Shown here piece by piece: positions 9,750-63,545 of a stretch of DNA of 64,000 nucleotides; positions within the stretch are counted from its first letter, which is position 1; every line of letters begins with the position of its first letter. Location: the NCBI GenBank assembly GCA_035235625.1, contig CP141149.1, positions 12,954,893 to 13,018,892 on the forward strand, in the 5' to 3' direction. A program made the position numbers and the translations under genes. The notes below the pieces were generated by a model. The model was not told the origin of the DNA, searched no databases, and worked only from the letters and a program-made list of their open reading frames with translations. The DNA comes from Saururus chinensis. Its lineage: Eukaryota; Streptophyta; Magnoliopsida; Piperales; Saururaceae.

Positions 9750-10045
9750 TTTTTTTAGCTAAAAGATAAAGAGACTTACAAATATAGGTCACACTATCAA
9801 AATCTTACATTAGTAGTTTGGTCAAGCAAATTATAATCTTAGATAGAATCTAATCGAATAAATTATACCTACACCTCTTGACCTTGGGTAAAATGACATT
9901 TACATATCTTGATGTTTTAAAAAATTTTATAGACATTCCTTGTCATTAACAAAATATTTAGTTGTTTTTAAATAGCAAAAATACCCCTAATCACCGCTAA
10001 GGGGTCATAGGTATCTATAATCGATGGAAAGCGTGATGAATGAAT

Positions 10046-11239
10046 TGAGAGTTTAATATCAGTCTAATCGACCTAGCGGATCACTAGATTGCTCTCAAAA
10101 CTAGTACTTTCAACAGGTAAGAATTAAGAGTTCTAACCTTTTTGCACAGTTTTTTTATTAAACAAAAACGATTAAAATCTAATTATTCACTCAATCTCAC
10201 TATCGAATTATCAATCAATCAACCATCAATCAATCCACACACAGACACAAAAATTTACGTGGAAAACCCCAACTAGGGCAAAAAAAACACAGCGGTTCCA
10301 AAGGAACTAAATTAATTTACTAAAACTCAAACTTTACATGGACACAAGCAAACCACCAACTTTGTCTAACACAAGCTCCTCTTATTTGGATCATTGTTGC
10401 TGGCCTTCAAGTCTTCTCAAAGCACTTAACACTTTCTCCTTTTTGCCTTATCTCTATTTGCCTCTAGTCTTCAACAATCTCTTCTTGTTGACTTGACTTT
10501 CACATTGTGGAAATCTTCAATTTTCCATTGAAGACATGTTGCAACTCTTCTTTAAATACTCTATGTATTAGCTCCTTTAGTTGTAGATTGTCTTTTTCAA
10601 TTTACCATAGAACTTCAATACAAAGCTCAAGTGAATTCTCCATTGGAAAACAATAATCATAAGTGCAAACCCTCTTTTCTCTTTTCTCCTCTAGGTTTTC
10701 TTTTATCCAATTTCTTAATTTCATAACCCTTATATATCTCATTAAGTAGGTTTAGGAATTGTACTTAAATAAGGATCGATTGTACCTTATGTCCATGATT
10801 TTTCGATCAATTGATTGATTGCAAGAGCAATCTATTAACAACTCTTGGCATTGTTTTACATAGGGCTGAATCAACACGCGACCAATTAATTTGTCCACAT
10901 TTTGCAGCCATTGATCATTGTACCTATTTTTGACAATTTTACCTTTTTTAACCTAAATCCTTCTTAAACCTTTGAAATCACTTTTTAACCTTTTTGAAAT
11001 GATTTATGTATATCCATGTGATCTAAATAAGCTTTTAAACTCTTCACATTCTTCAGTCTTTCACCTTGATCAATAAGAACACGCCTACTCCTATTTTAAA
11101 GTTTTTAAATTCCAAATCTACTTGACCATAACAACCTTAAATCAGACTCTAAGACTCATTACATAAATATGGTTTCTTAATATAATTTTGATAAAGAAAT
11201 TAGCCAATAAACTAGACATATGACTCATATGTTCTTACA
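10046..11239 (-). mobile_element. Solo LTR of a Copia-type retroelement, about 1.2 kb
   Basis: It runs from TGAGAGTTTAATATC to ATATGTTCTTACA, the same borders as the LTR at 33415-34079, which adjoins a minus-strand Copia gag and a primer-binding-like site. The shared internal mark is TTTACGTGGAAAACCCCAAC. No coding part lies beside it, so it looks like a solo LTR or orphan end. I see no 5-bp target duplication, so the copy is old or was rearranged. Confidence 0.7.
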
Positions 11240-11267
11240 CATACCTCCTTATCTAAGGTTGCCAATG

Positions 11268-18404: not shown

Positions 18405-18988
18405 ACCTATCACTGGACTAACCAAAATCTTTACATCAATCATCCTCCTAAACCCTCTTTGTCAAATTGAGCTGCATCTAGCCCCTTCACACTATCTCAT
18501 GCTTTGCTTTCACTTGTTTCTAGCAATTGGGACATTTCCAATGTGTGTTCTTCTCCATCTAGAAGTTCTTCCCTTCTGAATAGTTCATTTTCAGCTCTCC
18601 ATCACCTCCTTCCTCATCCCGGAAGCTATGGCGTACTACAAGAGGGCTAGTGAGGGCTCCGACTCGGCTTCACTATTATTGTCGGAGTTGACATGTTTGC
18701 CACACTTTTCACTTCCACTTCACTATCATTGTCTCCATTTGGGGTGTTCTTGAATGAAGGCATATGTAGACTAAGGGGCATCCACATCTGTCTAGAACAA
18801 CATGACTCTTTGTCTGTGTCCAATACGAATGACTACAGTGTTGTCTCTGTGTCCATCTCTTGTTATTCATGTGGGACATGGGTGAACTTGGACACTCACA
18901 ATGTGCAACAATGGGAGAATCCAATATGCAATCTTTCTATAAGTTTGGAGCTCTTGATGGAATAAAACATAATATGATTAGGCTTACT
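18405..18988. other. Spacer between the solo LTR and the Copia fossil
   Basis: About 580 bases. Open frames on both strands at 18693-18965 overlap each other and match nothing I know. No element ends recognised. Confidence 0.4.
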
Positions 18989-19351
18989 TGTAGCCACTAG
19001 AGCCTAAACAAAGCTTGATCCCCTTGATGAAGCTTTTCCTATGCTAATCTTCTACAAATTCTCCCAATGTGTTTCTGGTTTAGAACTTGACTAAGAGTAA
19101 TTCTTGCTTAAGGCATTATATTGGGATGGCTAATGGTGTATTTATAACTAAACTAGGATAACATTGTTAAGAACCCTAGAATCTTGACCCTCCATCAAGA
19201 GGTCAACCAATGGTCTAGATTTGCTACTAAAACCATAACTTAATGGGTATTTTGACTCAGGCCCATTACCTAACAATTTTGAAAACCTAAAACCATTGTC
19301 AATTAAGACAGTTAGGCCGCCTAATGTTTTAATTAAAAAACAAGCCCAACA
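18989..19351 (-). repeat. 3' LTR of the Copia fossil
   Basis: 363 bp, TGTAGCC...CCCAACA on the + strand. It contains a minus-strand TATA-like TTATAAATAC near 19137-19150 that is also present in the other LTR. Confidence 0.92.
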
Positions 19352-19643
19352 TTCTCCCACTTGGCACAACTTCTCAATTGAGCTATAGAAATAAAATCTC
19401 CAACTTGGCTTAATTAAACTAAATTTGAGAAAAACATTTTAGTTATGAAATAATAACCAAGTGGATAATGGGAAAATTTAAAATAACTTTTGTATGCGCA
19501 TACGATTTTTGTTTTAAAAAATACCCTTTGAACTGTATGTGGTAACTTTATACTCTTGCAAAATGTTATAATTGTACGAACCAGGGAGGTTATGTTTTCA
19601 TAGGAGAACATTCCCTTCCATGTATTACAATGCAACTAATTCA

Positions 19644-23745: not shown

Positions 23746-24797
23746 TTGTCCCCAGACAATAATGTAAGGTATTGATTAGGGTAAAAAATAAGAGACAGAT
23801 AACCTACACCCAACAATTATTTGTTTTAAAATTGATAAAACACAAGATTGCAATTTAATCCCCTGGCCGGCTAAAAACATTAATAAAGCCCTTAAAATAT
23901 AATTAAAATACATCTACATGTAAACACATATAAACAAATTCCAAATTTTTTTGGTTCAAAAATGGACAAAACCAGGTCTATTGACCAGGTTTGCAATCGG
24001 GTCAGAACTAACCCATGTCGTGGCTGACCCGTGATGTGGGTCAGTCATGACCTGCAGAAGATAACTCGCTTTTGTGGGTCATCTCAACCTCTCAACATAG
24101 AGGTTGAATCGCCGAGGCAAAGAAAATTACCCAGTATCATTTAGCGAGGCCCGCTGGTAGCCCAAAAGACTAGAGAACATTTCGCTTGATGGAGGTGATT
24201 CCAAATATCGCAAAAAATTCAGAGGGTGGTGCATTGTAAGAGCATTTCAAAAAATGAACAGTGCATAGCGACCTTTGTACGAAATAGTGGTGGCTATGTG
24301 CGATGCCCGTCGGCAACCTAGAATGCCGAAAAAGGTTCCACCTGATGGCAACGATTCCAAATTAGGCCCAAAAAGAGGATGACAACGTCCTATGATGGCT
24401 GATTCAAAAACCGAATAGAGGAACTAAAAACAGAGCTCAGCAACTGTGGTGCCAGCCAGCACCCAAACGCCATGAGGAGGCAGTGCTGGCCAGCACCGGA
24501 TAGGATCAAGGACAAAGGGCGACAATTGGAAGCCCGCAGTGGTTGCATACAAGTGATTGCACAGAATAGTTGAAAATAATTTTTGAGACATCGCCGGACT
24601 GTGCCTACACATCTAGAGGGCCAGTGGTGCAAGCCAGAGCCAGTGCCTGGTGGTAGCTTTGGCCGGAGTGTCTGCTTTGGCCAACAATTCGGTAGCTGCC
24701 TGGTGGACCAGTATCTACTTAGTTACAATGCAAGCGATCGGAATAAAAAATTGTAGCCGCTGCTGATTGTCGTCACAACCAAGTTAGCCTCGATACC

Positions 24798-25160
24798 TGT
24801 AGCCATTAGAGCCTGAACAAAGCTTAATCCCCTTGATGAATTTTTTCTTCTACTAATTTTCTGCAAATCCTCATAATGTGTTTCTTGTTTAGAATTTGAT
24901 TAAGAGTAATTCTCGCTTAAGGCATCATATTAGGATGGCTAATGGTGTATTTATAACTAAACTAGGACACAATTTTTAAGAACCCTAAAATCTTGACCCT
25001 CCATCCAAAGGTCAGCTAATGATCCAGATTTGCCACTAAAACCACAGCTTAATGGGTATTTGACTGGGGCCCATTACCCAGACAGTTTTGAAAATCCAAA
25101 ACGAGTGTTGATTGAGACAGTTGGGCCACCTAATGTTTTAATTCAAAAACATGCCCAACA
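24798..25160 (-). repeat. 5' LTR of the Copia fossil
   Basis: 363 bp partner of 18989-19351, followed on the minus strand by the primer-binding site. The internal leader between it and gag (about 23770-24797) is more GC-rich than its surroundings and shows no convincing gene. Confidence 0.92.
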
Positions 25161-25411
25161 TCTCCAACTCCACAAAGTGCCTCTAAAGAACATAGGATGA
25201 GCTTATAATTACTGGTGCAACTCAAAAAATTCAGCTGAAGCTACAGTTCTTGAGGGCTGCATTAGAGAATAAAGAAACTCCATAGTGAGATCCAATGGAA
25301 GCACAACATCAAAGAGTAAAAAGACTCCATAGCCAGATCCGATGGAAGCTTGCTATCTAGTTGGGTTCCTTCGGCTATAGAATAGGACTAGAGAGGTGAA
25401 GAGAGACATGT

Positions 25412-31299: not shown

Positions 31300-34079
31300 T
31301 AAATTTCTTCATGCACACTTTCTTCATCTACTTCTCATACACTTGGTGGTGCAACTTAGGGGTAGATGAGGTAGTGTTCATCTTTTTCTTATTCTTCCTT
31401 CATCTAAGCTTGAAGGAGTAGTTCTTTGGACATTCTCTTCTAACATGGGTCTCACTATGACAAATATCACACACCCCCACTATGTTAGAACCTATCATTC
31501 CTTCTTTTAGTCTAGACCTAGGTGGGTTGAACACTATCTTAGGCTGTTTTAAACTCTCTTTTGCCATCACAAAATTAGTGGGTTTTGCTAAGAGGGTAAC
31601 AAGTAATTCCTAAACCCTTAGCTCATCTTGTTTGTTTGACCAATGCTAAACATAGTCTCTTACTTCTTCTTCCCGTTCTTGAACCTATCTAATTTCGTTT
31701 TAAAGGACATGAGTTATCTATTAAGAGCACTAGATTTTTCTTTCTCACTCTCTAGGACTTTCTTAAGGTCATTCACTTCTCCTTCTAGTTTGTTATTTAA
31801 CTCCACTAACCTATTAGTCTCTTGAGAAGACATAACTAGTTCATCTTCTTTCTTCTTTAACTCTCTCACAAGACTTTTGGTTTTCTTAGTCAAAACTAAG
31901 AGTTGTTGGAGAAATCTCTTAAACTTATCAGAATTATTGAGTTCTCTTCAAGAGAAGTGGACTCATGAGAATCTTCTTTTGAACTATTATCCTTCACACT
32001 TGCATAGAAGACAATATAGTTGCACAAGTATTCTTCTTTAGAAGAGCTCTCATCAGAGTAAGTTACTTAAAATTCATTTCCCTTTTTGTTATAATCAAAC
32101 CCCTTTTGCTTTATGTGCTTGTCAATAGAAGAATTATCAAGATTCACGTTAGGACAATCAGCAGTAAAGTGACCTAACATACCATATTCAAAGCACTGCA
32201 AATTCTTCTTGTCTTGTTTCGTTGGCCTCTCATCTATCTTTTCCCCTTGTTTTTTTCTAGAATTTTGTCCCTTATTCCCAAATCTAAAGTTTTGAGTTTT
32301 CATAAATTTCTTGAAGTTCTTAGCTAGTAAAAATATTAGTTCTTTATCATTTTTAGATTGTTCAGATTCATCTAAGGTGTTTAACACTTTGTTTTTCCTT
32401 GAAGTTCTTCTACATGCTTTTTGGGCAATCTATTTTCCCTTGGACTTGTCAATCCTCTCCTTTTTATTCTCATAGGACTTTTCATCTCAGATATTTTAAT
32501 GTTCCCAACCAACTCCTCTATGTCTAAGGTGTTTATTTTCTTTGATTAATGAATAGAAACCACCTTAATTTTAAATTTTGAGGATAAAGATCTTAAAAGC
32601 TTTCTCACAACAAGGTATTAAGGAATAGGTTCTCCTAGTTGATCACATTTGTTGACTATGTCTAAAATTTTAGCATAATATTTAGAAATTATTTCTTCTT
32701 CACTCATTATTATGTTTTCAAACTTTAGAGTCAACATTTGACACCTAAACACCTTCACTGTCTCAGTTCCTGCATTATGTTTCCCAACTTTTGCCAAGTT
32801 ACTTTGGCAGACACAAAATTAAAGATCAACCTATATTGTGATTTTTCTACATTAATGAATAAAACACTGAGGGCTTTACTATTTTGATTAGCAAGTCTAT
32901 TATCATTCACATCCCAATCAATTTCATCTTTTGACATTGGAGCACTCCAACCTTTAACAACAATTTTCCAGACATTCCCATCAAGCACTTATATAAATGT
33001 TGTCATCCTATTCTTCCAATATGAAAATTTTTTCTCATCAAATAAAATAGTTCTTTTCATAGAATTTTCCAAGTCCCCATGCTCATTCATTGAATTACTC
33101 AATCCAACCATTAAATTAAATCAACAAAAATTACCACAAACACCACAAATTAAGCACTAAAGTCAAGGAAATTTATGAGAGAAACAACTACCAACCTAGG
33201 GCACACAATTCATCAAGTTTCAATTAATATTTCTAAAAGAAAAAAACAATCAAAACTTAAGCACAATTCAAAATTTAAACCCTTGCAGAAAAAATCTAGC
33301 ACAAGAATCAACTATGAAAATTTAAGCAAGGTTCTTAAGCAAAATCATGGCAATTTTGATTGATATTAAGTAGCCAGAATCAAAATTTTCATTGATTAAC
33401 CTCAACTACCAATTGAGAGTCTAATATCCATCTAATTGACCTAGTGGATCACTAAATTGCTCTCAAAACTAGTACTTTCAACAAGAAAGATTTAAGAGTT
33501 CTAGCCTCTTTGCGTATATTTTTTTGAATTAAGCGGAAATGATTAAAACTTAAATTTCTCTCAATCTCACTTTCAAATTATCAATGAATCAACCATCAAA
33601 CAATCCAAGCATAAACAAATCAATTTACGTGTACAACCGCAACTTGGGTAAAAAACCACAGACAATTCCAAAGGAACTCTCAGCTTCATTTTGCAGAGGA
33701 GTAAATCAACAAGCAATTGATCATTTTGTCCTTTGCATTTTGCAGCGATCGATCGTTCAACCTATTTTTTGATATTTTTGCCCTTTTTATCTTAAACCTT
33801 CTGAAACGTTTATAATCACTTTTTAATCTTTTTAAAGTGATTTATGCATGCCATTGTGATCTAGATAAGCTTCAAAACCCTTCACATTCTTCAGTCTTTC
33901 ATCGTAATAAAAAAGAACATGTTAGCTTCTATTTTTCATGTTTGTCTATTCCAAATTTTACTTTACCACAACAACCTCAAATCAGACTATAAGACTCATT
34001 ATATACATATGGTTTCTTCACATAATTTTGACAAAGAAATTAGTCAATAAACTAAACATATGACTCATATGTTCTTACA
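31300..34079 (-). mobile_element. Copia-type LTR-retrotransposon fossil, 5' LTR plus gag only
   Basis: The 5' LTR is 33415-34079 (TGAGAG...TTCTTACA on +, about 665 bp, shorter than the 1.2-kb relative at 10046). On the minus strand it is followed by a primer-binding-like TGGTAGTTGAGG and then gag from about 33110 down to 31400. Polymerase domains and the second LTR were not found. Broken and partial. Confidence 0.75.
31400..33110 (-). pseudogene. Copia gag fossil with two CCHC knuckles
   Basis: On the minus strand the N-terminal gag region includes NSKALSVLFINVEKSQYRLI (32755-32988). A first knuckle, CFEYGMLGHFTADCP, lies at 32140-32205, with Tyr where the second Cys is usual. An acidic/Lys-rich stretch and a second CX2CX4HX4C-like word (CDICHSETHVRREC) near 31430-31480 follow. 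Decayed. Confidence 0.75.
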
Positions 34080-34099
34080 CATTGCAGACATGTGGTTTT

Positions 34100-52625: not shown

Positions 52626-53040
52626 GCCCAGCCGTTCGTCCGTCTGTCCCACTTTAGATACGTCCACTCACTGGATACCTTCTTTAGGCCCGGGTGCAAT
52701 CATCAAAATGGACGGCGTGAAGTAACGTAATGATATTTGAATGTGTAGTTTATTCTTTTATTGGGTAGCGTCCAGGTCACTTACCCTAAGGTTTGTTTTA
52801 TGTGAGAAACTTATATGAATCTGATTTTACCGTGACCCCATGTATCATATGATACAATGGGTAAAAACTAATCTGCTAATTAAGTTATGTGCACCATTAA
52901 ACCAAAATTTAATAGCATACGATGCTAAGCTCAAGCAATAGCAACTAAGCCCAAGCTCATATACAATCTAATGGGGCACAATGCTGGGGCTCACGTAGCC
53001 ACGCATTACACATGCGCTAATATAAACAAGTTTCTTATTA

Positions 53041-53424
53041 GGAAAAATTATTAAAATAAAAAAAAGATTACTAAAATATATTACTTTGGAAAATATTTTT
53101 CAAAGTGGTGTTCCTTTTTGCCACGCAAGCACCAGCGAAGCAGTTGGCACCAACGTGGCTTTTTTTTAAAATTGATTTCGTCGTTTAGAACGACAAAATT
53201 GGTTTGAATACGATTTCGTCGTTCTAAATGACGAAACCGTTTATTACTTGACCCGATGTCGTCGTTCAGAACGACGAAATCAATTTAAGCTGATTTCGTC
53301 GTTCTGAATGACGAAACTGCCACACTTAACTAATTTCGGCTTTCAGTCTAGGAACAACACTGATTTTGTCGTTCAGAACGACGAAATCAAATTAAGTTGA
53401 TTTCGTCGTTCAGAACAACGAAAT
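53041..53424 (+). repeat. Left terminal inverted repeat of the MULE
   Basis: Contains a decayed terminal hairpin (CACTTTGAAAAATATTTTCC region, 53085-53110) and a second hairpin at 53120-53159 (GCCACGCAAG...ACGTGGC). Six copies of the near-palindrome TCGTCGTTCTGAACGACGA follow, near 53177, 53209, 53255, 53299, 53361 and 53396. Matches the complement of 59548-59948 along its length. Confidence 0.93.
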
Positions 53425-53434
53425 CATCGTTCTT

Positions 53435-53626
53435 ATATTTCCCGATCTGCTCTGCCTCCAGTCGCCTCAGTGCAGTGAAGAGAGTCGTTTTGCGATCCAC
53501 CGCCGCCTCTGCCAAGATCCGGCCCGTTGCCAACGTCCAGCCCGCCGTTGCCGCCGTCCAGCCCGCTGTCGCCGCCGTCCAACCGCCGCAGCCGCCGACG
53601 TCCAGCCCGCTCCCGTTCAAATTTTT
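53435..53626 (+). other. GC-rich block in the MULE leader, possibly acquired
   Basis: A roughly 190-base island of CCGCC/GTCCAGCCCG repeats (three to four copies of GTCCAGCCCGCCGTTGCCGC or variants) sits between the left terminal repeat and the AT-rich leader, ending at a donor-like GGTACGATCC. It may be a 5' untranslated exon or host-derived DNA, as Pack-MULEs acquire. The open frame through it (53397-53726) is Ala/Pro-rich and low in complexity. Confidence 0.5.
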
Positions 53627-54159
53627 TGGTACGATCCTTTACTTTTTTTTTACTTCTTTTTTAATCGTTGCAATGGATCTTTTGTATGCTACATTGAAGA
53701 AATTTATCTTTTATATGCTATATTGAATAAATTTGAAGTTTTGATTATCCCAACATTGAGCCCTAGTTTTAGAAGTATTGTTCTCAGTCGTTTTGTGTGT
53801 TTTTTTTGTTTAAGATTATTGAATTGAGATGGATTTTTAATTAATGAGTTTTTGTTTTTTAAGATGACAAGTCTCTCAAATTTTGGAAAATGAGGAGGAT
53901 TTGAGTTTTTGAGCATGCTTTTTTTACAGCTTATATGGTTTGTGGCATTGCATGCATTATTGCATCAATTGTGTAATTTTATTAATTAGAAAATTTACTC
54001 ATTAATATAAAGTATTCATGATATGCTTATATACTTGGTAAAGTTATTAGTTTCTATGCGTATATATTTTGAAAATATATTGGTTAAGGTAGATATTAGT
54101 ATTAGTTTGTTTAATTTAATATTAATTTAATTTATTATTTATGAATTAATTTAATAGAA

Positions 54160-57007
54160 ATGACAGAAAAAATGGTTAGTTTTTTCATTAACTACGACGG
54201 ACGCATAGAAGGATTATTAATGAAGAAACCGTCTACATTTGATGAATTTGAGATGCACGTAGCAAGTAAGGTTGGGTTGGATCGAAGAAGATGGAAAATT
54301 ACTATCAAATATAATCTTCTGTCCTATGGATCGAGAATGATACTAATGAACATAAATGATGATTCATCAATGGCTTTTATGTTTCACCACTCATGTGACA
54401 AAATTTCTTTCGAGTTATTTCTCGAAAAAGAGGCCCGAGTGACTAGTGAAAGGCAAAGTAGTTCACATAGGAGCTTTCACAGAAGCTCACACAGGAGCTC
54501 GGATAGAAATGTGAACAATGAAAGTCATATGCAAATGCCGGTGGACAACGAAGAAGAAGGAAATATATCTATGACAGTAGCTTCAAATGAACGTCATAGG
54601 TCGTCTGCCTCTATTTACGATGGAAGTAGACCTAATTGGAGGTAAGGTTAATTTAGTTGTGAATACATTTTCAATCTTATTGTCCTTTAATGAAAATACG
54701 TTTAGCTAAATTTTGAGATTTTGTGTGTAATATGGAAGGTCCACGATGCATGCACACGAGCCATTTAGCGTTCAAATGTCTCAAGGCGGTGCATGGTATG
54801 AAACTCAAAGTTCGATGAGCCTTCATTACCCCTACACGTATGTTGGTCATACCGATGCTAGACCATCTAATCAGAGGTGAAATATATATTTATAAATGAA
54901 TTCAACTTTTTTAGGCTTACGAAATTTAATACATATGCGATGTTTATATGTAGGGGGGGATATGTCTACGGTGAAGATATTGATGAAAATAAGGATAATG
55001 AAGGTGAAGATAATATTGACGAAGTAAGTGGAGAAGATTCTGACATGAATGTAGAAGGGGTTAGAGGTGAAGAAAGCACTCAACAGATGGTTGACGGCAA
55101 GGGGGATGATGCGGTAGACAATGCCATTGCTGGGAATGATATGAATGTAGATGATGAAGAGCCGCCGCACTGTGAAGTGGAGCCACTTTATGCACACATC
55201 ACAGATGAGGAGATAGATGCGGCAGTAAATTCTACAATGGATTTGGACCAACAAAATGAAGATGAGTTATATGTTGGCCGCATCTTTGAGAATAAAGAAG
55301 CATTTGTTACAGCCTTACAGGAGTTTTCCATTCAAAATCATGTCGAATACAAGGTTGTACGAACAAATCTGGCAAAGTATACAGTGAAGTGCATTGATAG
55401 CACTTGCCCTTGGAGAGTGCATGGCTCAATCAAAAGGGGTGGTGGGTCCTTTAAATTGAAGACGTACAAAGGTGACCACACATGTCGGAATGCCCAGCTT
55501 AGCACAGATCATAGGTAGTGCAGTGCCTCCTTTATTTCGAAGGTCATAATGCCCGCTATCCAAGCCGAATTAACTCTCACACCAGGGGATATTATTCAAA
55601 GAATGAAGGAGAAGTATCATGTGGACATATCTTATAAGAAAGCATGGGCAGTAAGGAATATGGCGATCAAGGCCATTTCTGGAGATTGGGTAGAATCGTA
55701 TAAATTGTTGCCAATGTACCTAAGGGTGGTGCAAGAAGCCAATCCTGACACCTACTACCGCTTAGAGGATGATGTAGTACCTCGTGCAGATGGTGGCACT
55801 TGTAGGAGATTTAGACGGTTGTTTTGGGCGTTTGGGCCGTCTATAGCAGGGTTTCGACATTGCATCCCTGTGATTGGCGTTGATGCCACTCATTTGTATG
55901 GCAGATATCCTGGTGCTCTTATGGCTGCAACAGCTACAGATGGAAATAATAGGTTATTTCCTCTTGCATTCGGGCTTGTCGGGAAGGAAGATGGAGACAA
56001 TTGGAAATGGTTTCTAATGGAATTGAGGGATCATGTACTGATGGGTATGACGAACATCGTCATTATTTCAGATCGACATAAGGGGCTTCAGAAGGCAGTG
56101 CCTGAGGTTCTTCCAGAGCTAGATTATCACCATCGTTATTGCATCGTCACATAAAAGCAAATTTTAAGGAGTTCAAAAATGATACACTAACGGACTTGAT
56201 TGGGGCAGCAGCTTGTGCACTCACAGTAGAAAAGTTTGATGCTAAAATGGACTTGATTGGTCAAGAGAGTCCTAGGGCAAAACATCTCCTCTTAGGAGGA
56301 GAATTGCATCCTGCACAGTGGTCCCTTGCACACGGTGGTTTTATGACATTTAGCATGACAACTACAAATATGGCTAAAAGTTTAAATAGCGTCTTGAAGG
56401 GGGCACGAGGTTTACCTATGCAACCTTTAGTGCCAGCTATCTTTTATTGGCTCATAAAATTTTTTGTTAAACGATCTTCTGCCGCCTCTGCCATGGCCGC
56501 CACCCCATATACTCCTAGAGTGGAAGCCATATTAAGAGAGCAAACAAGAAAAATTGGGGAGTATATAGTTAATAGGATCAACAGGAGTCAGTACGAAGTG
56601 ACATCAATTCGTGCCCGAAAGGTTATGGTAAATGCTGCGATACTACTTGTACATGCAACATCCCTCAGGTTTATGGTTATCCTTGCTCGCACCTTATCGT
56701 CGTGTGGGCAAAGCGGCGGGAGCCAATCCATGCATCACTATTTTACACATCTTCTACTTATAAAAATGTGTACTCCGCAGAATTTTATTCTCCTCGTGGT
56801 CGGGAGTATTGGGAGAGGGATATACCTTTTGTGTTATACCCACCGATAGCAACAAGGCAACCCAGTCGCCCACGGTCGGTTCGCATTAGGAATACTATGG
56901 ACCGCAAAACAATTGAAAGAGATGGTAGAGGAGGATATAAATGCGGGAGGTGTAAACAAAGTGGGCATAATAGTAAATCATGTAGAAACCCTCTTGTTGA
57001 TTGGTAA
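54160..57007 (+). pseudogene. MURA-type MULE transposase, interrupted
   Basis: Exons 54160-54641, 54739-54876 and 54954 onward join in frame. Order: a PB1-like N-terminal domain (from MTEKMVSFFINYDGRIEG); a Ser/Arg/His-rich linker; an acidic stretch; a MuDR-type zinc DNA-binding domain (CIDSTCPWRVHGS...YKGDHTC, 55391-55485); the transposase core with VIGVDATHLYG (first Asp, about 55870) and VIISDRHKGL (second Asp, about 56060); a SWIM finger (CTCNIPQVYGYPCSH, about 56649-56693); and a CCHC knuckle (CGRCKQSGHNSKSC, about 56942-56983). The position that is usually Glu in the NxAES motif reads Lys (NMAKSLNSVLKGARG, about 56370). There is one in-frame stop near 55516 and frame changes near 56143 and 56640. 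Non-functional as it stands, but domain content is complete. Confidence 0.92.
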
Positions 57008-57103
57008 ACATATAATCAACCTCTGTATTTATTATATTTTTTTAGTTACGTACGCATGTATTCCTTACGATTAATGATATGATCTTCATTTTTCACAGAT
57101 CAT

Positions 57104-59342
57104 ATGGATCATGCAGAGCCTTGTTACGGGCCAGGCCCGAGTGACGCTTCTTTACTCGTAGAGCAGGAGTCACATAGGTCTGCTGCTATTTGGAGAGGAG
57201 AGGTATGATAACTTTTTTTAAATTTTGTTTTATTTTTTTGGTTGATATAGTACAACATGTTATAATTTTAAAATTTATTATAGGACCCCGGGTGCCTTGA
57301 GTGCACCGAACATTTTAAATATCTCCGCCATTGGCCCATAGATGAGCGTATGTTACCTTATATCGAGCGAGCGGGATTCGGCCATTTCATTCATCTACAG
57401 TATGTCCGTCTTGATCGGCCTCTATTGACAGCTCTTGTTGAGAGATGGAGGAGGGAGACACAGACATTTCATTTGTCATATGGAGAGATGTCCATCATGC
57501 TCATGGATGTGGCAGTTCTATTAGGACTTCGTATTGATGGACGTCCGGTGACAGGCATGACAGGAGGAGCTCATATGGATATATTAGTTAGACTTCTTGG
57601 TAGAGCTCCTCCTACTACAGTGATGCATGGTAGCCGAGTGAGCCTACAATGGCTCTTACAGGAGTTTAGCGAGCTCCCAGCCGATGCTACAAAGATAGTT
57701 ATCGAGCAGCATGCACAAGCCTATATATTGCATTTACTTGGAGCCACCATATTTGCGGATACCACGAGCAGCCACGTGCATGTTTCGTATCTCTCTCTCC
57801 TTGCCGACTTTGACATGGCTGGCACTTATTCATGGGGCAGTGCTACTCTCGCATTCTTATACCGAGAGTTAGGAAAGGCATGCCAAGCCATGACCTCGGG
57901 GATTGCGGGCTATCTGACCCTTCTTCAGGTAATTAATTGTGTAACTTTACTTGGTGTTTTAGTCACGTATAATTTTTTAATTCTAATATTTGTTATCACT
58001 ATTTTATGACATAGTTATGGTCGTGGGAGCACTTACACATCGGCCGACCAACTGCTAAGATGGGTCGCTTGGTCTAGGGTGCTCCATTAGGGGCGAGGTA
58101 GGTTGTATTTATGTTTACCACATTACTTTTTTAGCAACGTTTTATGTACATATGTTGAACTCATTTCTTAAATTTAACTCCTTAAGGTGGAATGTTCGGA
58201 AGAAGAGAACCGAAAATCCACAAGGAGTCCTCCGTTTGTATAGAGGGGAGTTAGACCACCAGCGGCCATACCAGGTAATTTTATTACCATGTTGAACTTT
58301 TTTATGTAATGATTTTAAAAAATTTATCGTTATTTAAACTAAATTATCTTTATATATTGTATAGATTATTTGGCAGTCGTACTCGGAGGACTTGTTGGTT
58401 GTGATACCTCCACTCTGCACGGACGGTCGAGAGGTGTGGCTTTCTCGAACCCCTCTAATATGTTATGAGATTATAGAGATGTATGTGCCGGATCATGTAA
58501 TGCTCCAGTTTAACCTGGAGCAAGGGGTCCCACCTTCTATTGTCTAGTTTGTCCATCGCATCACTCGACATGGCAGCCATATTACCGACTGGGCTATATA
58601 TCATGCGTCATATATTGCTCGATGGGAGGATAGGAGAGCCACTATTATTAGAGGGGAGCTGGCTACGACATTGCGAGATGTTCGTAGTACTTATATGCGC
58701 TGGTATTTACCGATTACACAACGATATATTTTACCGCGCGATGATGTAGAGGAGATGACATATCAGCCTAGGGGAGCATCTGAGGCAGCTCTAGTAAGTA
58801 GAACTTTGTTAATTAAGGCATATATTATTTTCTTATTTCGTTTTAATTATTTATCTAATATTTATTTTATTTTTTTATAGCTTTGTCAGATTCGACATAC
58901 TAATGTGTATGTCAGTGATTAGAGCGTCTAATGATGTCCTTCGTAGCTTACCACTACTTCATTCGGTGATCACGGATGTTCATCGATATTATCCTGTCGA
59001 CAAGGCCGCTCAGACGCAGCCGATGCACTCTACATGCCCTGATATTCCATCATCATCAGCAGCATATAACTCTCCTCCAGGTTCATCATTTCCAGACACT
59101 ACACATGTCACTCAGCCAGATCCTATTTTATATTATAGACGACATCAGCTAGCTCGTATTGTTCCATCTATTACTTATGCTGAGCCAGAGCCCGAGCAGG
59201 AGCCTGACATGGTGTCGCAGCCGGAGCCCCAACCCTGGTTAGAGCCAGAGCCATAGCTGCAGCCAGAGCTAGAGGTAGATCATGAGGAGCTCGTACACCA
59301 CCGTCGAGGACAAGGTCGACGACGAGGACGTAGGAGATTATG
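57104..59342 (+). pseudogene. Plant mobile domain (PMD, MAIN/MAIL-like) gene inside the MULE, interrupted
   Basis: Exons by eye: 57104-57202, 57284-57928, 58015-58097, 58187-58274, 58365-58793, 58881 to about 59342; phases agree. It starts MDHAEPCYGPGPSDASLLVE. The PMD core includes MLPYIERAGFGHFIHLQYV, TFHLSYGEMSIMLMDVAVLL, GLRIDGRPVTG and SWEHLHIGRPT, then YHASYIARWEDRRA and RWYLPITQRYILP. The C-terminal part is Ser/Pro-rich, then has a PEPEQEPD-type proline/glutamate stretch, then an Arg-rich tail (HHRRGQGRRRGRRRL). PMD genes occur as host regulators (MAIN/MAIL, partners of PP7-like phosphatases) and inside transposons. In-frame stops (near 58076, 58546 and 59255) and a frame change near 58910 show decay. 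Its role in the element is unknown. Confidence 0.9.
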
Positions 59343-59547
59343 ATATTACTTGTAATCTATTATATTTGTTACTCGTATATGATGTACTTTACTTATATTT
59401 GTTATGGTGATATTCGTGATACTGATATTTGTTATGGTGATATTTGTTATGGGTGGAATGAATGAAGTTGTGCATGTACATCTGTGTTTTGAATGAATGA
59501 ACAGGGACAGGTGATAAAATTAGTTTTAAATAGTAATTTTAAAAAAA

Positions 59548-59948
59548 TTTAATTTGATTTCGCCGTTTAGAACGACGAAATTAGCATAATTTGATTTCGT
59601 CGTTCTGAACAACAAAATCAGTGTTGTTCCGAGACAGAAGGCCTAAATTAGCGAAGTGTGGCAGTTTCGTCGTTCAGAACGACGAAATCAGCTTAAGTTG
59701 ATTTTGTCGTTCTGAATGACGACACCGGGTCAAGTAATAGAAGGTTACATCATTTAGAATGACGAAATCGTATTCAAACCAATTTCGTCGTTCTAAACGA
59801 CGAAATCAACTTTAAAAAAAAGCCACGCTGGCGCCAGCTGCTTGGCTGGCGCTTGCGTGGCAAAAACGAGCACCACTTTGGGAAATATTTCCCAAAGTGG
59901 TATATTTCAGTAAATATTTTTTTTAATTATTATTTTAATAATTTTCCC
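59548..59948 (-). repeat. Right terminal inverted repeat of the MULE
   Basis: Complement of 53041-53424. It has six near-palindromes of the TCGTCGTTCTGAACGACGA type (near 59548, 59584, 59647, 59699, 59748 and 59781), a GC-rich hairpin at 59822-59861 (GCCACGCTGG...GCGTGGC) and a perfect 30-bp palindrome at 59872-59901 (half site ACCACTTTGGGAAAT). Confidence 0.94.
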
Positions 59949-61915
59949 TTCTTATTATATACCTTCATATTACATACATTAACAAATGTGTAAGCCTGAA
60001 CTTATATAAACGAGTCTCTTATAATATACTTCCACATCACATATGTTCACATGTAAGCAAAATTTGATTTTTATTGATGAATAGCACTCATCTGCTAACC
60101 ACATTAGCCAAGCAAAAGGACTAGCAGCTAGCTAGCTACCACGTGGACATTGGACTCTACATAGTATATACTTTCCTCTCTAAATGGGTAGAAGGCTCTA
60201 CCTCCTTTCTAACCCACGGTGACCTAACCACTTTGGGTAGGCCATTTGAGATGATACATCCAGCTGAGATCAAAATATCTAGGCTTAACACCCCCTTTCT
60301 CCATCATTTCCTCATTTTCCCTGAGAACCTTCATCAAGTCCTCTGAGATGATGATTGGAACTCGCGGCAAAGTCATCGAAGACTCCCCCCAGAGGACAGT
60401 TCCACCATTTTTTATCATCGGCCGCACATTGAGCACATCTGCTTCGCCCTCATTGTTCATCATTAACGTTTCATGGTATTCTCCATGCATAGTATGCTCG
60501 GTTACTCCTATGGTTCCTATTCACCATCAAGCAGTGAAAGCCATGACTTATAAGGAAATATATTTGGTACAAGTTTTGTTACACTCTATGTAGTTACTTA
60601 CCTATCAAATACCACCCATGTGGCTTGAAGGTTATGTAAAGTGGCTGGCTAGCAGAATCGCTGTGGTCCTAGGCCCTTGGGGATGGCACACTAATTAAAA
60701 GTTAAATCTTTATTCAATTCTCTACACAAAAGTGCATATTATTTCAAATCAATAAACAATATATTATCCAGCTTAGAGCATGCATAAGTCAAAACGAAAT
60801 TAAGGAGCAAGGATGTATTGACCTTAGGCCGATCAGCCCCTAGCCCGCCTTCATACTCTTCATACCATCAACCGGATGCAATAGATCTCAATGTAATCAA
60901 GAAGAGAAGGAGATTTTACCTTGTATGTGTTGATCTCTCTACCACCTTGTTCTTGAATGAAATCTCAACAAATATGACATCCCAAACAGTGAGGAGAGTG
61001 TTCTCCTTCAATTGACTCGCCCAAAGGAGTAGAAGAGAGGAGTAGAGAGGGGTGGCCAGCAGTTTGTCTTCCCAAAAACTCAGGCCACACCAAAAGGGAG
61101 AGAGGAGGGGCGGAGTGGGCTGAGAGAGGAAAGATGGGGGACGTCCCAAAAATTTGGTTTTTCCTCTCCTTCTTATCCCTTAAATACCCCTCACTAATCC
61201 CTATTTAAATGGGCTTAACTTAATGGACCTCTACTGAGTTTTCCGGCTTAATATTAGAGGGTCATACACAACGGGAGTGGGCTCTGTTTCTCAGAGCCCG
61301 TGGGGGCTTGGGCCCCCTACACTTGGGACAAGCCCGTGACAGGGTCGACCCCTCCTAAGTACGGGTCCAACCATCAACATATAATTCATGTATCGGGCCC
61401 CTCAACGTTTTAACGCACATCCTAGTCACATGCCTAGTGTGCATGTGTGACGAATGCGCATCCCAATTAAATTAGTATCACTTTGGCTCCTGTGAGGTCG
61501 GCGCGACCACCCCCATCACCCATGGACCCCGTGGCCCATACTGCTCACTCAGACTGCGAATACATCAGACCAAAATGGATGCAAGCCGATATAATGGTCC
61601 AACAGGTTAATGGTCCGCTCGAGAACTACAAGCCAAAAAGGGTGGCCAATTGCCGCCTTCATGAGTGGCACAACCTGCATAAGGTTTTGAAGTTAGTGAA
61701 AAGGACCTATACATGGTATACTCCCAATGTCCCACATAAATAGTATTGTTTAGTTTTCAAATTAGTTAAAATTAATTTAATTCAAAAAATTAAATAAAGT
61801 TATTAATCTGTGATGAAGGGTGATCGCATATAATAAATCGAGGAAGGAAGGCTTGGGAGAAATGATATGATGATGTCCAACTTCGAATGTGTTGGGGTCA
61901 TGCACAACATGAGGG
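59949..61915. other. Spacer right of the MULE, no gene seen
   Basis: No convincing coding region. Minus-strand open frames at 60224-60490 and 60916-61149 and a plus-strand one at 61483-61743 have no recognisable domains. The stretch 61250-61340 is GC-rich (GGGGGCTTGGGCCCCC). TGTCCCACATAAAT near 61727 resembles a common plant LTR word. Probably old repeat DNA. Confidence 0.4.
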
Positions 61916-62875: not shown

Positions 62876-63545
62876 GTCACTATGTGTGCAACATTGCTGG
62901 GAAATCATGCAACGTTGCAGGGGATTTCCCACAACGTTGCAGGGAAATGCCGCAACGTTGCTATGAAGTGCCGCAACATTGCAGGGAGATGCCGCAACAT
63001 TGCTGTGAAGTGCCGCAACGTTGCAAAGAAATGCCGCAATGTTGCAGGGAAATGTCGCAACGTTGCAGGAAAATGCCGCAACGTTGCAGGGAAATGCCGC
63101 AACGTTGCAAGGATTTCCCGCAACGTTGCTGGGAAATGCACATGTTGGGGTTAAAAATGTCACTATGTGTACAATGTTGTGGGAAAATCATGCAATGTTG
63201 CAGGGAAGTGCCGCAACGTTGCAGGGATTTCCCGCAACGTTGCAGGGATTTCCCGCAACGTTGCTGGGAAATGCACATGTTGGGGTTAAAAATGTCGCTA
63301 TGTGTGCAATGTTGCGGGGAAATCATGCAATGTTGCAGGGATTTTCTGCAACGTTGCAGGAAAATGCCGCAACGTTGCAAGGAAACGCCGCAACATTGGA
63401 GGGAAATGCCGCAAACATGCCAACAAGTGTGTGCAATGTTGCATGTTTATGCTGTAATGTGTGCATATGTTGTGGTTGGGTACGTCACCATGTGTGAGCA
63501 ACGTTGCCGAGAAATGCCGCAACATTGTAGGCAACTGCCACATCC
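62876..63545. repeat. Palindromic 21-bp minisatellite with higher-order repeats
   Basis: The basic unit is about 21 bases, GCAACGTTGCAGGGAAATGCC with variants, present about 25 times. The core GCAACGTTGC is a perfect palindrome. A longer module, GTCACTATGTGTGCAA...ATCATGCAATGTTGCAGG, begins near 62876, 63159, 63294 and (partial) 63484, and is preceded by ATGCACATGTTGGGGTTAAA in two cases. Long open frames on both strands (up to 227 codons) are by-products of the unit length and are not genes. Confidence 0.95.

Follow-up and report, generated by a model that had tools for sequence, protein, structure and literature searches.

Mutator-like elements (MULEs) that bear a plant mobile domain (PMD) gene are a described class of plant transposons. 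Table 1 of Dupeyron et al. 2019 (PMC6446971) gives PMD for the majority of MULE groups 47-49, where it is sometimes or often antisense, and in antisense for most members of group 50; half of VANDAL is listed with 'PMD and/or DUF'. The angiosperm groups with PMD are 47 MULE-Monocots, 48 MDR, 49 MUDRAVI2 and 50 MUDR. The PMD groups have 9-bp target duplications where these are given, and terminal inverted repeats (TIRs) of 14-421 bp. Fusions of a MULE transposase with PMD-C were reported in grasses and Amborella by Ikeda et al. 2017 (PMC5418596), who suggested, as speculation, that the transposon PMD is used against silencing. The counter-silencing idea is repeated in PMC8616336, which describes PMD as confined to angiosperms. 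Eudicots have mainly genic PMD-C (PMC7156037), and PMD has been named in both MULEs and Gypsy elements (PMC9289625). The part of a 2026 review that was available (PMC13317346) does not mention PMD.

The element described here occupies positions 53041-59948 of the 64-kb stretch of DNA that was analysed, hereafter the window. It is a structurally whole, genetically broken Mutator-type transposon with a PMD gene. Its MURA-PMD pair is a new example of the published class, not a new kind of thing. With groups 47-50 (PMC6446971) it shares a MURA-type transposase, a 9-bp duplication (where given for the groups), long TIRs (in part of the groups) and PMD, a likeness of description that places the element in none of them. 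The transposases of these groups have SWIM or CCHC; the SWIM and zinc knuckle matches of our element fall below cut-off. Like the grass and Amborella fusions (PMC5418596), it holds PMD and transposase within one MULE, but its PMD is separate in this copy and lies 96 bp downstream. Maize MuDR (mudrA and mudrB; PMC6446971) also has a transposase and a second gene between long TIRs; its genes are convergent (PMC3310237), while MURA and PMD here are on one strand. VANDAL elements with VANC (Hosaka et al. 2017, PMC5735166; Sasaki et al. 2023, PMC10398659) combine, as here, an accessory gene with repeated short noncoding motifs. However, the available parts of these two papers do not describe VANC as a PMD protein, and VANDAL ends are degenerate, whereas the motif in our element is a palindrome within long TIRs. 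A VANC-type anti-silencing system has an accessory protein which binds repeated motifs and removes methylation; of these features our element shows a repeated motif.

Boundaries and genes of the element

The element terminates in inverted repeats of some 390 bp (left, 53041-53426, + strand; right, 59555-59948, - strand), with 345 of 394 aligned columns identical when gap columns are counted as differences (BLAST E ~1e-130). A perfect target duplication of 9 bp, TTCTTATTA, adjoins them (53032-53040 and 59949-59957). Nine bases matching at both ends would be expected by chance with a probability of ~8e-6 at this composition, and the 9-mer has one further occurrence on the + strand of the 64 kb (50244). 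MULE target duplications range from 8 to 11 bp and are usually 9 bp (PMC6446971). The 9-bp duplication, the long TIRs and the MURA-type transposase domains are all features of MULEs. The initial annotation, which had described long terminal inverted repeats, a perfect 9-bp duplication and two co-oriented genes, MURA then PMD, was right to read them as a single MULE carrying PMD as its second gene: the ends and the duplication are confirmed by alignment, and Pfam puts both genes on the + strand. Its remark that PMD-bearing MULEs were already a known class also agrees with PMC5418596 and PMC6446971. It called the element complete, which holds for the structure (ends, duplication and both genes) but not for the coding content, both genes being pseudogenes in this copy. 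When the ends and the entire element were compared with the window (blastn, E 1e-3), all matches lay inside the element.

A leader (53431-54159, + strand) precedes the first gene. Its first part (53431-53640), directly inside the left repeat, has 63% GC and contains tandem CCG/GCC-rich units, and an AT-rich stretch follows. The GC-rich part is possibly a transcription start region. A GT at 53629 and an AG at 54156, read by eye, could be the borders of a 5' UTR intron.

The MURA pseudogene (54160-57007, + strand) was modelled with three exons (54160-54641, 54739-54876 and 54954-57007), and the PMD pseudogene (57104-59343, + strand) with six, both from the DNA sequence. The MURA introns are in phase and the joined frame is open, with splice sites read by eye. 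Two Pfam domains were detected, the MuDR DNA-binding domain DBD_Tnp_Mut (PF03108; E 2.6e-12, 46.6 bits, cut-off 25) and the MULE transposase domain (PF10551; E 1.4e-17, 64.4 bits, cut-off 27.6). SWIM (15.2 bits, cut-off 19.6) and zinc knuckle (16.3 bits, cut-off 27) scored below their cut-offs. There is a premature in-frame TAG at 55516, and the overlap of open frames and Pfam matches locates two frame breaks, one at ~56140-56151 and the other between 56576 and ~56640. At 56369-56387 the reading seems to depart from what we take to be a conserved motif of MULE transposases, and this may mark an additional functional loss. With one stop and two frame breaks in its transposase, this copy is not an autonomous MULE, which has an intact transposase frame. 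A Pack-MULE, which carries a host gene fragment and has no transposase gene, was also ruled out, since the transposase gene is present, though broken.

The PMD gene (PF10536) starts with an ATG at 57104, 96 bp 3' of the MURA stop and on the same strand. Its exons are 57104-57202, 57284-57928, 58015-58097, 58187-58274, 58365-58793 and from 58881 to the TGA at 59341-59343. The five introns have 81-90 bp and GT-AG borders, and the first four are in phase. When exons 1-5 were joined, with two stops written as X, the match to PF10536 spanned positions 1-346 of 347 (E 7.7e-87, 292.1 bits, cut-off 34.9); single pieces match it with E values of 7.3e-48, 1.3e-11 and 0.0082, the last of them below cut-off. 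Premature in-frame TAG codons are found at 58075, 58545 and 59254, so that all four premature stops of MURA and PMD are TAG. Exon 6 is seemingly out of frame with exon 5 (apparent break at 58881-58903), a break that depends on the donor at 58794; by hand, a weaker donor 14 bp downstream keeps the frame. The proline/glutamate stretch and the arginine-rich tail that had been noted at the end of PMD are both present, in this order, with the TAG at 59254 between them.

Among the ten gene pieces scanned with Pfam, four had no match, and a few unrelated families gave weak matches (E 0.03-0.07). For PMD exon 2, a structure prediction made without alignment had a mean pLDDT of 38.6, and the best match in the Protein Data Bank had an E value of 0.55. 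In viral contigs, PMD exon 2 gave 3 pattern matches and a piece of MURA gave 4, none confirmed; of 38 pattern matches to PMD exon 2 in prokaryote genome contigs, none was confirmed. Both results are uninformative about plants. A tblastn search of the window with the element masked found neither a second MURA or PMD copy nor a host PMD gene (best E 0.92).

The 96 bp between the genes bear on whether PMD was once part of a fused MURA-PMD protein, the gap being a former intron. Such fusions were reported by Ikeda et al. 2017 (PMC5418596), the gap is short for a promoter, and a GT at 57004 and an AG at 57097 are possible borders by eye. However, joining these borders by hand creates a stop at the junction and the PMD frame is lost, and PMD begins with an ATG of its own (57104). 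In this copy transposase and PMD do not form one frame, since 96 bp lie between the stop codon of the first and the start codon of the second, and we regard a former fusion as rather improbable.

PMD as part of the transposon and the probable history of this copy

We consider it likely that the element is an angiosperm TIR-type MULE that was formerly mobile, with PMD as its probable accessory gene and palindromes that are binding sites or a hairpin source, and that this copy was later silenced and decayed. This history is read from the sequence of one copy. An intact MURA, its own or from a sister copy, would have bound the long inverted repeats; the long TIRs of Mutator elements contain transposase sites and promoters (PMC3310237). 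MURA would then have inserted the element by cut-and-paste with a 9-bp staggered cut, by analogy with the Mutator superfamily. The PMD gene is full-length and has introns, and would therefore have been acquired at the DNA level. It would probably have been an accessory factor, perhaps one that counters host silencing of MAIN/MAIL type. Later the copy would have been silenced by cytosine methylation and would have decayed, as suggested by its broken genes and by the bias towards C-to-T and G-to-A changes in the palindromic units described below.

The retained introns would also suit a passive host gene, transduplicated whole and now decaying, that never served the element. MULEs can take up gene sequences (Ikeda et al. 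2017, PMC5418596), and three stops and an apparent frame break interrupt this PMD. However, the transposase gene is also broken, and the decay of PMD thus says nothing special about PMD. In addition, several MULE groups have PMD in the majority of their members (PMC6446971), which is not expected of random passengers. We think a passive passenger unlikely, with about one chance in a few, and keep PMD as a probable accessory gene. A putative anti-silencing role of this gene is a published speculation.

Palindromic arrays in the terminal inverted repeats

The unusual feature of this element, absent from the initial annotation, is an array of palindromes in each end. The unit is a CG-rich palindrome of 23 nt, TTTCGTCGTTC(A/T)GAACGACGAAA, repeated with few changes six times per inverted repeat, 12 times in total. 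The left array (53176-53423) has units starting at 53176, 53214, 53257, 53294, 53364 and 53401, with start-to-start steps of 38, 43, 37, 70 and 37 bp. The right array (59558-59805) mirrors this order, with starts at 59558, 59595, 59665, 59702, 59745 and 59783. When up to 6 mismatches were allowed, all 12 matches in the 64 kb were inside the inverted repeats. With up to 5 mismatches, 50 simulated sequences with the length and dinucleotide make-up of the window contained no match; the window itself has 12. No match to the unit pattern was found in viral contigs. A limited literature search, covering titles and the starts of abstracts, found no such arrays in MULE ends, a weak negative. No word beginning with 'palindrom' occurs in the available parts of PMC3310237, PMC9168764 and PMC5735166, and the papers matching the string TTTCGTCGTTC included, by title, none on plant transposons.

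The units are most likely either sites for a dimeric element protein or hairpin-prone DNA yielding silencing RNA. The ratio of observed to expected CpG is 2.18 and 1.78 in the two inverted repeats, against 0.49 in the window. The 12 units deviate from their majority sequence 21 times, in 17 cases by a C-to-T or G-to-A change, an excess expected of methylated DNA. Changes affect 17 of 120 C/G sites and 4 of 144 A/T sites (Fisher P 0.0009, a value that is too small because the units share their ancestry and both ends have several changes in common).

Binding of a protein receives no support from constraint in this copy, because identity between the two ends is not significantly higher in unit columns than in spacers (126/138 and 183/209, P 0.30). 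In a more specific form of the protein reading, the twelve palindromes would be the target of the PMD of the element, or of a MURA-PMD complex, and PMD would shield the ends from methylation. We give this proposal, built on the sequence, very little credence. If true, it would be the second sequence-specific system of anti-silencing in MULEs, evolved independently and using a protein related to host silencing factors.

Folded as RNA, most of the left repeat (stretch 53150-53430; only this repeat was folded) reaches -120.7 kcal/mol (z -13.1), and none of 200 shuffles was as stable. The arrays may thus be a hairpin source of silencing RNA and not protein-binding sites, a liability that would have led to the death of this copy. 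Long TIRs of Mutator-like elements are described as a frequent source of siRNA (PMC10398659), and in tea phased siRNAs have been reported from PMD and transposase genes (PMC10673657). However, the pairing has not been preserved: among the 132 dyad pairs, 19 are broken, 1 is compensated and 112 are intact. Upkeep of pairing by compensatory change finds no support in this single pair. We hold the hairpin reading as a tentative one, somewhat short of an even chance, within the broader view that the units are either binding sites or hairpin-prone DNA.

Taken alone, the element adds one decayed example to the published class. Its importance would grow if the host genome contains intact sister copies. 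Such a MULE, in which PMD is a separate gene and the ends bear a clear repeated palindrome, would be a suitable test case for the proposal that PMDs carried by transposons counter host silencing, because the candidate target DNA is visible in the ends.

The remainder of the window

Of the 57 stop-to-stop frames of at least 90 amino acids in the window, 11 belong to the element. Pfam was run on 20 of the 46 outside it and gave matches with E values of at most 0.01 for four: near 7.7 kb a fragment of DUF4371, which is below its curated cut-off; near 21.6 and 22.3 kb two pieces of Copia type; and near 39.7 kb an integrase zinc-binding piece. The Copia-type frames, on the - strand, are enclosed by a direct repeat of about 378 bp with 86% identity (18985-19361 and 24794-25169), the copies of which are probably the LTRs of an old Copia element. 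The window gave no tRNA and no Rfam family at gathering score. Two blocks at 10043-11242 are repeated in the same order about 23 kb away, at 33411-34082, with identities of 82.7 and 83.7%. A minisatellite is present at 62888-63414, with 21-bp units GCAACGTTGCAGGGAAATGCC and longer periods of 42, 63 and 135 bp.
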